Of a stretch of DNA of 32,143 bases, positions 26,077-32,143 are shown piece after piece. Made by a program: the position numbers and the translations under genes. Each line of letters opens with the position of its first letter. Within the stretch, counting starts at the first letter, position 1. The DNA comes from Saprospiraceae bacterium. GTDB taxonomy: Bacteria; Bacteroidota; Bacteroidia; Chitinophagales; Saprospiraceae. Location: contig JAHDIP010000045.1 of assembly GCA_020630735.1 (NCBI GenBank), positions 1 to 32,143 of the forward strand. Reading direction: 5' to 3'. Under the pieces are notes generated by a model. It searched no databases. It was not told where the DNA came from and saw only the letters and a program-made list of their open reading frames with translations.

Positions 26077-26577
26077 ATGGCATCCAAAAATCTATTATAT
26101 ATCACCCTACTTTTTGTAGTTAGTCTGAGTAGTTGCTATTCATTTAAGGGCATTACAATACCCGTAACGGTCAATACCTTTTATGTCAATTTGTTTGATA
26201 ATGATGCTCAAAATGTTGTTCCAAACTTGAGTTTAGATTTTACTGAAAAGTTGAAGGATAAAATACGTTCAGAGTCACGTTTAGATGAGAGTAATACCGA
26301 TCCAGACATTGAGTTTAAAGGAACTATTACACAGTATAGAGTAAGTTCTGAAGCACCAACTACTGGCGAAACCACTGCATTTAACCGATTAACTATAACC
26401 ATTGCGGTAGAGTATATCAATAATCAGGATGAAGAAGATAATTGGAAACAAAACTTCTCCTTTTTTAATGATTTCCCGAGTTCACAAAATTTACTCTCTG
26501 TTCAAGATGAATTAATTGAAAATATAAATGATCAATTAGTAGAAGATATTTTTAATAAAGCATTTACTAATTGGTAA
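26077..26577 (+). CDS. lptE: LptE-family lipoprotein (LPS assembly)
   Basis: A 166-residue lipoprotein with lipidated Cys20 in SLSSCYSFKG. After GITIPVTVNTFYVNLFDN comes DFTEKLKDKIRSESRLDE and a beta-rich core, which matches LptE (LPS-assembly lipoprotein) of Bacteroidota. LptE plugs the LptD barrel and helps insert LPS into the outer leaflet. Family similarity is low in general and the call leans on the CYSF/KG start, the length and the position after the sigma-54 activator. I see no LptD gene in the window. Confidence 0.85.
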   Translation: MASKNLLYITLLFVVSLSSCYSFKGITIPVTVNTFYVNLFDNDAQNVVPNLSLDFTEKLKDKIRSESRLDESNTDPDIEFKGTITQYRVSSEAPTTGETTAFNRLTITIAVEYINNQDEEDNWKQNFSFFNDFPSSQNLLSVQDELIENINDQLVEDIFNKAFTNW

Positions 26578-28158: not shown

Positions 28159-28261
28159 ACTTACCGTTTGTCGAAAGAGGGTACACCTCTATCTAAATAT
28201 ATTGTCATTTTCCATAAATACATTGTACTTGTTGTTTTTAACCACTTCAACAAAAAATGCT

Positions 28262-28489
28262 ATGATGTTATTAGGAACAACTTTTTTCATTGCCATGATC
28301 TCTATTCTTTTGATTGGCGCTATATTAATCCAAAGTCCCAAAGGCAGCAAAATCGATTCAACACTTGTTGGCGGAAAGACTACACAAACGCTGGGTGTTG
28401 CAAGATCTTCAAATTTCATCCAAAAACTAACATGGGGTTTAGCAATTGCATTATATTTGCTTTGTATAATCTCCACATTATCAATGTGA
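28262..28489 (+). CDS. secG: SecG-like preprotein translocase subunit, divergent copy
   Basis: A 75-residue two-helix protein. Helix 1 is at about 6-25, with ILIQSPKGSKIDSTLVGG, then ARSSNFIQKLTWGLAIALYLLCIIS forms helix 2. The match to SecG is clear: a glycine-rich loop after IQxPKG and the FIxKLTWGLAI pattern. SecG assists the SecYE channel in protein export. It is shorter than the second copy because it lacks a C-terminal tail (ends at STLSM). I chose the ATG at 28262; a TTG start 60 bases upstream is possible. It may be an old duplicate under weak constraint. Confidence 0.85.
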   Translation: MMLLGTTFFIAMISILLIGAILIQSPKGSKIDSTLVGGKTTQTLGVARSSNFIQKLTWGLAIALYLLCIISTLSM

Positions 28490-28588: not shown

Positions 28589-28852
28589 ATGGCTTTAGCA
28601 GGAATGACTGTACTTATTGCGCTGATTTGTGTCCTTTTGATGGGCGCTGTTTTAATCCAAAACCCAAAGGGTGGAGGTTTAGATTCTACTTTTGGTGGCG
28701 CAGGTGCTAACCAAATGTTAGGTGCAGCAAGATCAACAGATTTTATCGAAAAATTGACTTGGGGCTTAGCAATAGCTTTATACGCTCTTTGTGTATTAGC
28801 GACGTTCTTAGTAGGATCAGGTTCTACTGGAGAGCAATTATTGTCTCAATAG
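28589..28852 (+). CDS. secG: SecG preprotein translocase subunit
   Basis: An 87-residue two-helix membrane protein. Helix 1 is at about 4-23, then the loop VLIQNPKGGGLDSTFGGAG and helix 2 FIEKLTWGLAIALYALCVLA. A soluble tail (GSGSTGEQLLSQ) follows, which the first copy lacks. It is the more standard SecG of the two and probably the principal subunit. It belongs to the Sec translocase at the inner membrane. It closes the lptE gene run, and a strong terminator follows 18 bases after the stop. Confidence 0.93.
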   Translation: MALAGMTVLIALICVLLMGAVLIQNPKGGGLDSTFGGAGANQMLGAARSTDFIEKLTWGLAIALYALCVLATFLVGSGSTGEQLLSQ

Positions 28853-28870
28853 TCTGATTGATTATACATT

Positions 28871-28905
28871 CAAAAAGCCTAGTAGCACTGCTGCTAGGCT
28901 TTTTG
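28871..28905 (+). terminator. Long palindromic terminator after secG
   Basis: CAAAAAGCCTAG pairs with CTAGGCTTTTTG, and the inner AGCA pairs with TGCT after a single T/G mismatch. It is followed by TGTTTG. A strong intrinsic terminator. Confidence 0.88.
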
Positions 28906-29061: not shown

Positions 29062-29089
29062 GGCAACCCTTTTGAAAGATTCTCCGTGT
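29062..29089 (+). promoter_or_regulatory. Possible ECF-type promoter upstream of the sigma factor gene
   Basis: GGCAACCC (29062-29069) followed after about 16 bases by CCGTGTT resembles the -35 (AAC) and -10 (CGT) elements of ECF sigma factors, as would fit self-activation. AGGAGG follows at 29091-29096, 30 bases before the start codon, so it cannot serve as a normal ribosome site here. Confidence 0.35.
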
Positions 29090-29126
29090 TAGGAGGTATA
29101 GATCAATAATTAGTATCTTAGAATTT

Positions 29127-29681
29127 ATGACAGAGAACGAATTACATCAATTAGTTTTGGCTTGTCGAAAAATGGATGCCCCAAGTCAAAAAAAGATTTA
29201 CCGACATTTCTATAATTACGGAATGACGGTCTGTTCTCGATATGCCAGTACAACAGAAGAAGCTAGAGAAATATTGAATGATGGTTTTGTAAAAGTTTTC
29301 ACAAAAATTGACAAATATTCTGCTAATCGTTCTTTCAAAGCCTGGATAAATAAAATACTCGTTAATACATCGATTGATCACTACCGAAAAAAGAAATCCG
29401 AACCGAAGACTATTGATTTGATTCATGCCCAATACGTAGAGACTTCCGCATCAGCCATCGAAATGCTTAGCGCAAAAGATTTATTAAAGATGGTTCAACG
29501 CTTGCCACCTTCTTATCGGATAGTATTTAGCTTGCATGCTGTAGAAGGTTTTACACATGTAGAGATTGCCAAAAAGTTAGGAATTAGTGAAGGAACATCT
29601 AAATCAAATTTAGCTAAAGCTAGAGTGAAACTAAAAGCAATGCTTCATTCTTCTAATGAGAAAAGAAATTACTATGGATAA
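29127..29681 (+). CDS. ECF-type RNA polymerase sigma factor
   Basis: A 184-residue sigma-70 family factor with only regions 2 and 4. Region 2 (about 20-90) includes EEAREILNDGFVKVFTKIDKY and the RSFKAWINKILVNTSIDHYRKKK -10 recognition helix. Region 4 (about 110-170) includes LPPSYRIVFSLHAVEGFTHVEIAKKLGISEGTSKSNLAKARVKL, an intact helix-turn-helix. It would direct RNA polymerase to a small regulon, often envelope or stress genes. The gene for a likely anti-sigma protein begins inside its last codons. Confidence 0.95.
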   Translation: MTENELHQLVLACRKMDAPSQKKIYRHFYNYGMTVCSRYASTTEEAREILNDGFVKVFTKIDKYSANRSFKAWINKILVNTSIDHYRKKKSEPKTIDLIHAQYVETSASAIEMLSAKDLLKMVQRLPPSYRIVFSLHAVEGFTHVEIAKKLGISEGTSKSNLAKARVKLKAMLHSSNEKRNYYG

Positions 29682-31053
29682 TAAGGAGTTTGATAAATTA
29701 TTTTCTGATAAACTCAACGAGACACAGTCTTTCGATTTTGATGAGTCGGGTTGGAATGAAGTTGCTGAGCAAATTCGTCCTGAGCAATCGAAAAAAAGAC
29801 CATTTCCATGGTTTTGGTTGTTCGCCTTTGCTTTATTATCATTAGGAGGAGTATGCGCATATTTGATGTACAGTTTGCATACAGCACACAATACTATTAA
29901 CAGCATAGAAGAAAAACTTTCTTTAAGAGAAAATACTAAAGAAGATAATAGCATCGAAAAAACGACTCTAGTACTTTATGATACCATTTATAAGACCGTA
30001 ATTATAGAAGAACAACAAATTAGCAATAAGTATTCAGAACATAAATCATCAAACAATAACCAGAATAAACGATTACTAACGTCTTCTGGATTTACACAGT
30101 ACTACCAAAATGCATTCAATTCGATACAGCGAATAGTAATACCAAGTAATACAATTTTTAAATCTCTTGAATCACAAGCACAAACACAAAAGGGGGCGAA
30201 TGCCATTGAGGAAAGAAATGAAGAAATAAAAAATATTAATCCAAGTGTAGCATCAGCTTTAACAAATACATACAAGTATCGTTTTGCAATGCCTATGCAA
30301 AAAATTGATCCCTTGTCTTTGACTTATTTGAAGACAACAATTAAAGATCCTATATTTTATTTTGATAGTCCAAAGAACATCATTAAGAAAAAAATAAGAG
30401 AACCATTTATTGATAAATTTTCGATAGGTCTGTTAGCAGGAGTGGCGCAAGTCAAGAACAACTTTGATATAAATGATCTCAACATCATTAAAAAAAGTAG
30501 TTGGAATGCTGGGTTACGACTAGCGTATCAATTTACAGATCATATCAATGTGTGGTCATCCATTAGCTATATGCAACAGAATTATCAAGAAACTGAGTTG
30601 GACAGTTTAAGTAGAGCCCCAGATGTTTATTATCCGTCATCATTTAATGAAATAGATCGACTTGAATTGATAAACGAAGCAATGCAAGTTCGTCTTGGAC
30701 TTAATTATAGATTTTTGCATACCAATAGGTGGCGAACCTATATTGGGTTATCAACAGAACTTGAGTACTTAATAAGACAAAATAGTACTGTTTATTATAC
30801 TGCTTCATATTCGCCAACTTTATTAAATATTTCTCAGGTTATCAAAACAGGGCTGAATGAACAATCGCCAATGGTCAACACAATTATACCAACTGCTGGC
30901 TTTGAGTTTGATATTACACCAAAACTAACATGGCGATGCGAAGCATGGTTCAAGCAAGAATTAAAAACAAATACCAATCACTTTTCTCAACCATTTGGTA
31001 TACAAACAGGAATATCTTACAACTTTTCAACAAAATATAAAGCTATGTACTAA
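29674..31053 (+). CDS. Anti-sigma-like protein fused to an outer-membrane barrel-like domain
   Basis: A 459-residue protein. The N-terminus MDNKEFDKLFSDKL then DFDESGWNEVAEQIRPEQ matches the cytoplasmic part of Bacteroidota anti-sigma proteins. One membrane helix follows (about 44-64 in this numbering, WFWLFAFALLSLGGVCAYLM), then a periplasmic Ser/Asn/Gln-rich linker of about 200 residues. The C-terminus (about 265-459) alternates aromatic and polar residues as in beta-barrels: FSIGLLAGV, SWNAGLRLAYQF, INVWSSISYM, TYIGLSTELEY, FGIQTGISYNF. I use the ATG at 29674 because MDNKEFDKLF is the usual family start and it overlaps the sigma gene by 8 bases; the ATG at 29656 adds six residues. It probably holds the sigma factor and reads an outer-membrane or periplasmic signal; that is inference. 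Confidence 0.82.
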   Translation: MDNKEFDKLFSDKLNETQSFDFDESGWNEVAEQIRPEQSKKRPFPWFWLFAFALLSLGGVCAYLMYSLHTAHNTINSIEEKLSLRENTKEDNSIEKTTLVLYDTIYKTVIIEEQQISNKYSEHKSSNNNQNKRLLTSSGFTQYYQNAFNSIQRIVIPSNTIFKSLESQAQTQKGANAIEERNEEIKNINPSVASALTNTYKYRFAMPMQKIDPLSLTYLKTTIKDPIFYFDSPKNIIKKKIREPFIDKFSIGLLAGVAQVKNNFDINDLNIIKKSSWNAGLRLAYQFTDHINVWSSISYMQQNYQETELDSLSRAPDVYYPSSFNEIDRLELINEAMQVRLGLNYRFLHTNRWRTYIGLSTELEYLIRQNSTVYYTASYSPTLLNISQVIKTGLNEQSPMVNTIIPTAGFEFDITPKLTWRCEAWFKQELKTNTNHFSQPFGIQTGISYNFSTKYKAMY

Positions 31054-31062
31054 AACATTCTT

Positions 31063-31372
31063 TAGAGCATGTTTAAAAATTTCAATTGGTGGAATACGAA
31101 TAATCAAAATCATTGACTATAAATATACAGAAACCGAAGTGGTTTTCGGATTGTCAAACGATTAAAGCTACTGATAATCAATCAAATGCTACTGACGATG
31201 ATCCTAAAACCGAATACCGGTAGGTATAGTTTATGCTTCCTCCTTTTCAAGGATTTATGAACCTGAGGTCGGCATGAAAATTTCATTTAGCCCGCTAAAT
31301 TCAATTTTAATCCCTTACTCAGAACCAAAAATCGTTGAAAATTAGTTCGCAAAATCTTTAAACAGACTCTTA
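31063..31372. repeat. Possible miniature inverted-repeat element
   Basis: The left end TTTAGAGCATGTTTAAAAAT resembles the complement of the right end, which reads TTAAGAGTCTGTTTAAAGAT on the minus strand (about 16 of 20 positions agree). The 310-base body has no gene and holds repeat copy B. No clear target-site duplication is seen, so the call is tentative. Confidence 0.35.
31118..31229 (-). repeat. Copy B of a dispersed intergenic repeat, the longest
   Basis: On the minus strand it reads TACCGGTATTCGG, GGATCATCGTCAGTAGC, GATTATCAGTAGCTTTAATC and GTTTGACAATCCGAAAAC, then CACTTCGGTTTC. The middle holds two tandem variants of a unit of about 22 bases (GATcATcgTCAGTAGC and GATTATCAGTAGC). The sequence CCGAA-AACCAC-TTCGG could form a hairpin. 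Confidence 0.65.
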
Positions 31373-31396
31373 ATTTTTTCAACAAAAAGAACAAGT

Positions 31397-32143
31397 ATGA
31401 AAAATGTAATTATTATCTGCTTACTACTCGTAAGCATGGCTTCTTATGCCCAAAATCTAAAGCTTAATTTTATTACAAGTGCTGAATACACGTATTCTAA
31501 GTATTCATATGACAGTGGTTTTATAGCCGAAAATAAAGGACAATCAATAGACTTAGGATATTCGACAGTCTTACAGTTAGAATATTCTTTCACAAACAAA
31601 GTAGCCCTTTATACAGGTCTTGGTTATCGTCAAATGAATTTTAAACCAAATCTAGTTTTAGGAAGTGCTTATGGGATTGTCGAAGATCCAACAGGAACTT
31701 TAAGTGATATTTTTTACCCCTATTTAGCGGAGCATTCGTTTGAGACAATAACGATCCCCCTTTTTATTAAATTTTATGCACTTCAGTCAGGAAAGGTTAA
31801 TCCTTTTATCGCTTTGGGCTTTGACACCAATATTCGATACACTGAAGTAGAAATGTACAAGTCATTATATGAGGATTTTAGACCGATAACTATTCCTGAA
31901 AACGGGGCAATATCTATAACCGAGAAAGGCTTTTCTTATTTTGGTACGAGCTTTAAAGTAGAGCTAGGAATGTCAATAGAGTTGACTAAAAAGATCAATT
32001 TTTTAATTAATACTCAGATTAGCTTATTAGAGTTTAGAAATGCAAACGAAAAGTTTAAGAATAATGATACCTATGTGTACGAAGATACCTTTTTACCCAC
32101 TAGTCAATTTGTAGGTGGTGCAGGACTTCAATATGAATTTTAA
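31397..32143 (+). CDS. Outer-membrane beta-barrel protein
   Basis: A 248-residue exported protein. Residues 1-18 are a signal peptide (MKNVIIICLLLVSMASYAQ) cut before Gln19. The mature part alternates as a small beta-barrel: TSAEYTYSKYS, TVLQLEYSFTNKVALYTGLGY, SFETITIPLFIKFYA, KVNPFIALGFD, FGTSFKVELGMSIELTKKI, NFLINTQISLL and a C-terminal FVGGAGLQYEF ending in Phe, as expected for a barrel recognised by the Bam machinery. It belongs to the PorT/OmpA-beta-barrel-like group common in Bacteroidota. It follows the anti-sigma-barrel gene by 343 bases and is a plausible target of the ECF sigma factor, which is inference. The stop codon is the last codon of the window. Confidence 0.88.
   Translation: MKNVIIICLLLVSMASYAQNLKLNFITSAEYTYSKYSYDSGFIAENKGQSIDLGYSTVLQLEYSFTNKVALYTGLGYRQMNFKPNLVLGSAYGIVEDPTGTLSDIFYPYLAEHSFETITIPLFIKFYALQSGKVNPFIALGFDTNIRYTEVEMYKSLYEDFRPITIPENGAISITEKGFSYFGTSFKVELGMSIELTKKINFLINTQISLLEFRNANEKFKNNDTYVYEDTFLPTSQFVGGAGLQYEF

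Follow-up and report, generated by a model that had tools for sequence, protein, structure and literature searches.

A putative Dma-type sigma/anti-sigma gene pair with a predicted barrel-ended anti-sigma protein in a Saprospiraceae bacterium

Results

Gene organization of the sigma/anti-sigma locus

The window, as we call the whole stretch of 32,143 nucleotides analysed here, carries an ECF sigma factor gene overlapped by the gene of a predicted Dma-type anti-sigma factor, with a putative promoter element upstream and a separate barrel protein gene downstream. The features of the region, with the predicted parts of the anti-sigma protein, are as follows.

28202-28489 and 28589-28852: secG genes in tandem (Pfam SecG, 9.3e-13 and 1e-18)
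29062-29090, + strand: predicted ECF-type promoter, GGCAACC (29062-29068), 16 nt and CGTGTT (29085-29090), 36 nt 5' of the sigma ATG
29127-29681, + strand: ECF sigma factor gene (das-type), 184 aa
29674-31053, + strand: predicted Dma-type anti-sigma factor gene, 459 aa
29674-29802, + strand: predicted anti-sigma head in the cytoplasm, residues 1-43, with two helices and a near-invariant Trp27 (model and alignments)
29803-29937, + strand: predicted inner-membrane helix, hydrophobic core at about residues 43-68, helical on to residue 88 (hydropathy and model helix 45-88)
29938-30402, + strand: predicted periplasmic tether, residues 89-243, mostly disordered (model pLDDT), with a YDTIY box at residues 102-106
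30403-31032, + strand: predicted C-terminal outer-membrane-type beta-barrel, residues 244-453 (predicted fold and structure matches)
31397-32143, + strand: gene of a separate OMP_b-brl barrel protein, 248 aa (Pfam OMP_b-brl, 1e-6)

The sigma factor matched Pfam Sigma70_r4_2 (4e-17) and Sigma70_r2 (2.2e-11), both above the cut-off, and among the 25 NCBIfam matches listed for it only that to the sigma70-ECF superfamily lay above the cut-off. The cut-off of TIGR02985, a sigma subfamily linked with FecR, was missed (85.8 versus 126.4 bits). The partner ORF as listed starts at position 29656, encodes 465 aa and overlaps the sigma gene by 26 nt. An in-frame ATG at 29674 yields a protein beginning MDNKEFDKLFSDKLNE, which aligns with the start of the partner in the relative G016 (locus L036), MDNQEFDKIFSDKLRQ, where the sigma factor is 58% identical to that of the window. 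Because the G016 partner begins at the equivalent ATG, with the same 8-nt overlap of sigma and partner genes, position 29674 is favoured over 29656 and is most likely the start of the partner gene. The preliminary description of an ECF sigma gene overlapped by an anti-sigma/barrel fusion gene was confirmed by the Pfam region 2 and region 4 matches and, with the start at 29674, by an overlap of 8 nt. The order of sigma gene and then partner gene was also found in relatives.

A terminator-like hairpin of 16 pairs (28871-28905) lies 3' of the preceding secG gene, and the sigma/anti-sigma pair is therefore probably a transcription unit of its own. Further upstream, a few genes 5' of the pair, an lptE gene was found (26077-26577; Pfam LptE, 7.3e-18). 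In G016, the gene immediately 5' of the sigma gene appears different from its counterpart in the window, and the gene following the pair appears different by sequence as well.

Predicted architecture of the anti-sigma protein

An AlphaFold2 model of the partner protein was computed from a 38-row alignment (A3) and was of moderate overall quality (mean pLDDT 68.7, pTM 0.50). The model placed two helices in the N-terminal head, at residues 3-15 and 24-34, and Trp27 in the second of them was shared by 90% or more of the sequences in each of the partner alignments, A2 (16 rows) and A3 (38 rows). The single predicted membrane helix coincided with the hydropathy peak (Kyte-Doolittle maximum of 1.98 over a 19-residue stretch starting at residue 47). 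The pLDDT then fell below 50 over most of residues 92-231, in agreement with a largely disordered periplasmic tether. The linker had at first been put at about 200 residues and is revised here to about 155 (89-243); taking ∼0.36 nm per residue, a simple calculation gives it a stretched reach of ∼50 nm, which exceeds what is needed to cross the periplasm.

In the C-terminal part the model showed nine strand segments between residues 249 and 450, with ten-residue pLDDT means of 60-96 over 241-460. Comparison of this part with solved structures by VIA-align gave OprF (4rlc; Z 17.3, 131 residues, 2.1 A), OmpA (1qjp; Z 15.8), NspA (Z 15.1) and OmpW (Z 14.6), and the top Foldseek match was OmpA (1bxw; 9.2e-9). 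Designed or soluble barrel-like proteins were also listed by VIA-align with lower Z values (6ohh 13.1, 8ah9 12.7, 5kew 8.5). A clear alternation of hydrophobic and other residues was seen in six of the nine strand segments and was absent from the other three. The Pfam OMP_b-brl match of the window protein (3.8e-5) stayed below the cut-off (PF13505, 24.4 versus 28.7 bits); at an E value of 0.01, PF13568 and PF13505 were matched by 24 and 12 of the 38 rows of A3 and by 9 and 8 of the 16 rows of A2, respectively. The window protein does not have the PLxGxGxGxVK motif that characterizes the consensus of A3. On the basis of the OprF/OmpA-type fold matches together with the strand alternation, the modelled C-terminal part is most likely a membrane barrel of the OprF/OmpA type. 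The combination of head, single inner-membrane helix and barrel-like C-terminal domain noticed earlier was in this way recovered in the model and the hydropathy profile, and the C-terminal part was predicted as a barrel, with true outer-membrane barrels as best matches, and not as a soluble beta-sandwich. A search of solved structures with a Dma profile returned 15 sequences at E ≤ 1, the best of which (2e-4) was a chain named lysostaphin, matched over helix and tether; none was judged a credible relative.

Distribution of sigma/anti-sigma pairs with long partners

Related loci were collected by a contig scan seeded with eight sigma sequences from close relatives, and the best 80 loci were analysed. 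The following ORF was at least 150 aa long at 78 of these and at least 380 aa long at 69. All the named loci among the best 80 were labelled Bacteroidota in the trees, the scan having been seeded with close relatives. G016 encodes a protein identical to one from a record with the label Saprospiraceae. A hydrophobic helix (threshold 1.4) began at residues 31-75 in 53 of the 69 long partners and lay within the first ∼250 residues in 64. The A3 profile matched 68 of the 69, a figure which is partly circular as 37 of the 38 A3 rows derive from the same loci. At nine of the best 80 loci the partner was short (235-306 aa), and eight of these nine matched the head profile at E < 1e-3.

A sigma tree of 102 rows was calculated which, as compared with an earlier 100-row tree, held the 12 Dma-like pairs of the bacterium's own genome (the borderline C296 being omitted) and three further relatives. 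Protein searches in 60 genomes, that of the bacterium itself among them, had yielded 15 new loci, and 10 pairs entered the 102-row tree; L040, L044 and L046 were left out for want of a complete or clear sigma ORF, L048 as it is the same place as L036, and L050 as its partner is identical to that of L089. The clade containing the window's sigma factor comprised 57 rows and was supported with 100/96 in the 102-row tree and 97/94 in the 100-row tree. The sister relation of the window and L036 received 99/85 in the 100-row tree and 99/57 in the 102-row tree, where bootstrap values were still somewhat unstable and two rows of the own genome sat on long branches. For the 51 in-clade loci that came from the best-80 scan, a partner was found in 49, each time 380 aa or longer, and none in two, and all nine short-partner loci fell outside the clade. 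The sigma clade, the long barrel-ended partner and the promoter element described below co-occur, and long partners occur outside the clade too.

These data bear on whether the C-terminal domain reaches the outer membrane at all. If it stayed in the periplasm or were cleaved off, head and helix would act as an ordinary one-membrane anti-sigma factor, as the existence of short partners with a recognizable head, and the disorder of the tether in the model, would allow. We regard this as quite improbable, in that the top fold matches are true transmembrane barrels and all 49 partners found in the clade are 380 aa or longer, the short ones all lying outside. The reading retained is that of an inserted barrel.

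Within the own genome, 48 sigma-region-4 matches were found, 41 of them above the cut-off, and a Dma-like protein (at least 380 aa, E < 1e-5) followed 12 of the 48. A paralogous sigma/Dma pair of this genome, on contig C149 (L002, 1102-2962), has GGCAACC-N16-TGTATAG upstream and a barrel end of the PLxGxGxGxVK type. In the 60-genome protein search, matches were obtained in 11 genomes, again with the own genome included, a low number that we think is due to fast divergence of tether and barrel. The DT[IVL][YFVI] box of the tether was present in 16 of 96 partner rows (the window protein being counted twice) as against 2.0% in shuffled sequences. It was scattered across the 100-row sigma tree and is therefore not a clade marker; it may be a general trait of periplasmic linkers in Bacteroidota.

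A conserved promoter element upstream of the sigma gene

The GGCAACC/CGTGTT pair had been taken to suggest autoregulation, a proposal that gained support from its spacing and distribution. With spacings of 13-19 nt allowed, the exact pair occurred three times in the 6.6-Mb genome, in each case with 16 nt, and the reversed control gave no match. Upstream of 79 sigma genes of the best 80 loci (L099, whose contig starts at the gene, being excluded here and from matrix scoring), GGCAAC was found in 29, against a background of 130-nt windows of which 3.7% contain it. The longer pattern GGCAAC-N16..18-CGT was found in 18, as compared with 0.32% of random windows. Counted on the 102-row tree, GGCAAC lay upstream of 30 of the 57 sigma genes in the window's clade and of 2 of the 45 outside it. 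Since the rows are related, no p-value is relied on for these motif counts.

Alignment of 29 in-clade sites (L143 was left out, its site lying too close to the start for the 34-nt window) placed the second block at a fixed distance, with C in 22, G in 24 and T in 16 of the 29. The leave-one-out matrix score of the window's site was 22.4, the threshold set at 1% of shuffles being 6.8. This threshold was passed by 37 of 56 in-clade upstream regions, 19 failing, and by 8 of 43 outside; both the scores and the 29-site alignment are based on the 100-row tree, one outside row of which was mislabelled, the other C215 sigma gene standing in for the C215:1624 pair. The sister sigma gene, that of G016 (L036), showed no trace of the element in its upstream region (best score −8.4).

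The lack of the element at this sister gene, and the position of one of the three exact copies inside a gene, would fit a chance match at 29062-29090 with no sigma-specific promoter. With the spacing fixed and the element enriched in the clade, we consider such a coincidence highly improbable. These sequence comparisons give good support to autoregulation through GGCAACC-N16-CGTGTT at the level of the clade and make it likely in the window.

Search for further targets of the sigma factor

The preliminary description had also called for a genome-wide search with this promoter. Apart from the window's own site, one exact copy lies within a gene (C259) and one 50 nt before the gene of a 417-aa protein on C140 (site L003 1150-1178; gene 1229-2482), which has a Por_Secre_tail domain (1.9e-10), a type IX secretion tail. 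When one mismatch was allowed, six matches were obtained versus two in the control, the three additional sites being located 15 nt before a 477-aa ORF, within a gene, and antisense within a long ORF. GGCAACC-N16..17-CGT gave seven matches versus five in the control. Beyond the exact pair the signal is therefore near background genome-wide. A looser pattern, sought in 150 nt, flagged four sigma upstream regions of the own genome. An association of GGCAAC with a Dma-like partner in the own genome was not significant (2 of 12 versus 0 of 36; Fisher 0.059). The C140 protein is the best candidate for the regulon and, like the tether box, a weak lead.

As had been noticed, a separate barrel gene follows the pair (31397-32143), but its suggested role as a target was not supported: GGCAAC, G.CAAC, GCAAC, CAACC and AACC-N15..19-CGT are all absent from the region 5' of it (31051-31400).

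Discussion

The gene pair, the architecture of the anti-sigma protein, its barrel fold and the conserved promoter are supported by sequence and structure prediction. Taken together, they very probably represent an autoregulated sigma/anti-sigma operon of the Dma/Reo kind in which a barrel-tethered protein would sense the state of the outer membrane. From the analogy with Dma/Das and EcfO/Reo, such a sensor is the most likely reading. We infer that the anti-sigma head would bind the ECF sigma factor and hold it at the inner membrane, while the chain would bridge the periplasm with its flexible tether and insert its C-terminal barrel into the outer membrane. Damage to that membrane, or a barrel that is perturbed or fails to assemble, would inactivate the head, most likely by proteolysis of tether or helix as general knowledge of anti-sigma factors suggests. 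The sigma factor so released would then use GGCAACC-N16-CGTGTT to transcribe the operon that encodes it, and probably a small regulon as well.

The barrel might instead serve as a ligand sensor that binds a surface glycan or another compound and passes a conformational signal inward, damage not being required. Such a role has a precedent in Dma2, for which sensing of a glycan at the outer-membrane surface is hypothesised in PMC13088901. A mostly disordered tether of ∼155 residues would, by contrast, be expected to relay a conformational change poorly, and a relative responds to a toxin and probably to envelope stress, according to PMC9308784. We hold ligand sensing to be rather unlikely, and prefer sensing of the state of the outer membrane. 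A more far-reaching idea, doubtful and offered as speculation, is that in this branch of the Bacteroidota the Dma design provides not a single vesiculation regulator but many side-by-side routes by which the outer membrane signals to transcription. The 12 Dma-like pairs of this genome would each have their own signal at the barrel and each sigma clade its own promoter code (GGCAACC-N16-CGT-like in the clade of the window), and the YDTIY box, just outside the inner membrane in the window protein and several relatives, would be a docking site for a protease or partner that triggers release.

The literature search returned no account of a barrel-ended anti-sigma factor in Saprospiraceae and none of GGCAAC in connection with a Bacteroidota sigma factor. 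The design itself is not new, having been published as Dma/Reo, and as its four-part architecture is already described the window's pair is a further member of a known design. What is added here is the promoter code at the level of the clade, the 12 Dma-like pairs in one genome, the C140 target candidate and the tether box, as well as the occurrence, by prediction, of the envelope-spanning design in a lineage distant from Bacteroides and Phocaeicola, the gut genera treated in the papers cited here; the published Dma1 survey of the spread of the family may already include part of this. The promoter code makes regulons predictable and testable. Should such pairs respond to barrel assembly or to damage of the outer membrane, they would constitute a direct outer-membrane stress response.

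In FecR-type signalling, a TonB-dependent transducer barrel and a one-membrane anti-sigma factor are two proteins; there too the state of the outer membrane is relayed to an ECF sigma factor, whereas in the window a single chain is predicted to do so. RseA, the anti-sigma factor of Escherichia coli sigma-E, is without a barrel, and in the DegS pathway it is a distinct protease that detects unfolded barrels. In that system, as in our reading of the window, an ECF sigma factor answers to the state of outer-membrane proteins.

The EcfO/Reo systems of Bacteroides fragilis and Phocaeicola vulgatus resemble the window in pairing a sigma factor with an envelope-spanning anti-sigma factor, the span being a prediction in the case of the window. 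According to PMC9308784, the Phocaeicola anti-sigma factor is predicted to cross the periplasm and to end C-terminally in a barrel; when it is lost the sigma factor becomes active, and expression of the sigma gene is 33-fold up under attack by the antibacterial toxin BcpT. In PMC13114119 and PMC9308784, Reo is said to span all five compartments and is proposed as an outer-membrane stress responder, and an EcfO recognition motif is mentioned as published in PMC7366714.

Closest are the Dma proteins, which PMC13088901 defines by an N-terminal anti-sigma domain, one helix, a disordered tether and a C-terminal beta-barrel, encoded beside an ECF sigma gene. For Dma1/Das1 and Dma2/Das2 of B. thetaiotaomicron, the same paper states that loss of the anti-sigma factor frees the sigma factor and raises vesiculation, and reports nigD1 and PUL genes as targets. 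The criteria of the family name group ECF21 for the adjacent sigma factor and confine the family to Bacteroidota. Dma1 and Dma2 belong to gut Bacteroides and the present pair to Saprospiraceae; the window protein is predicted to share these four parts, arranged alike, and its gene lies beside an ECF sigma gene in a member of the Bacteroidota. Placed by its modelled architecture and gene order against the published descriptions, it is most likely a Dma-type member.
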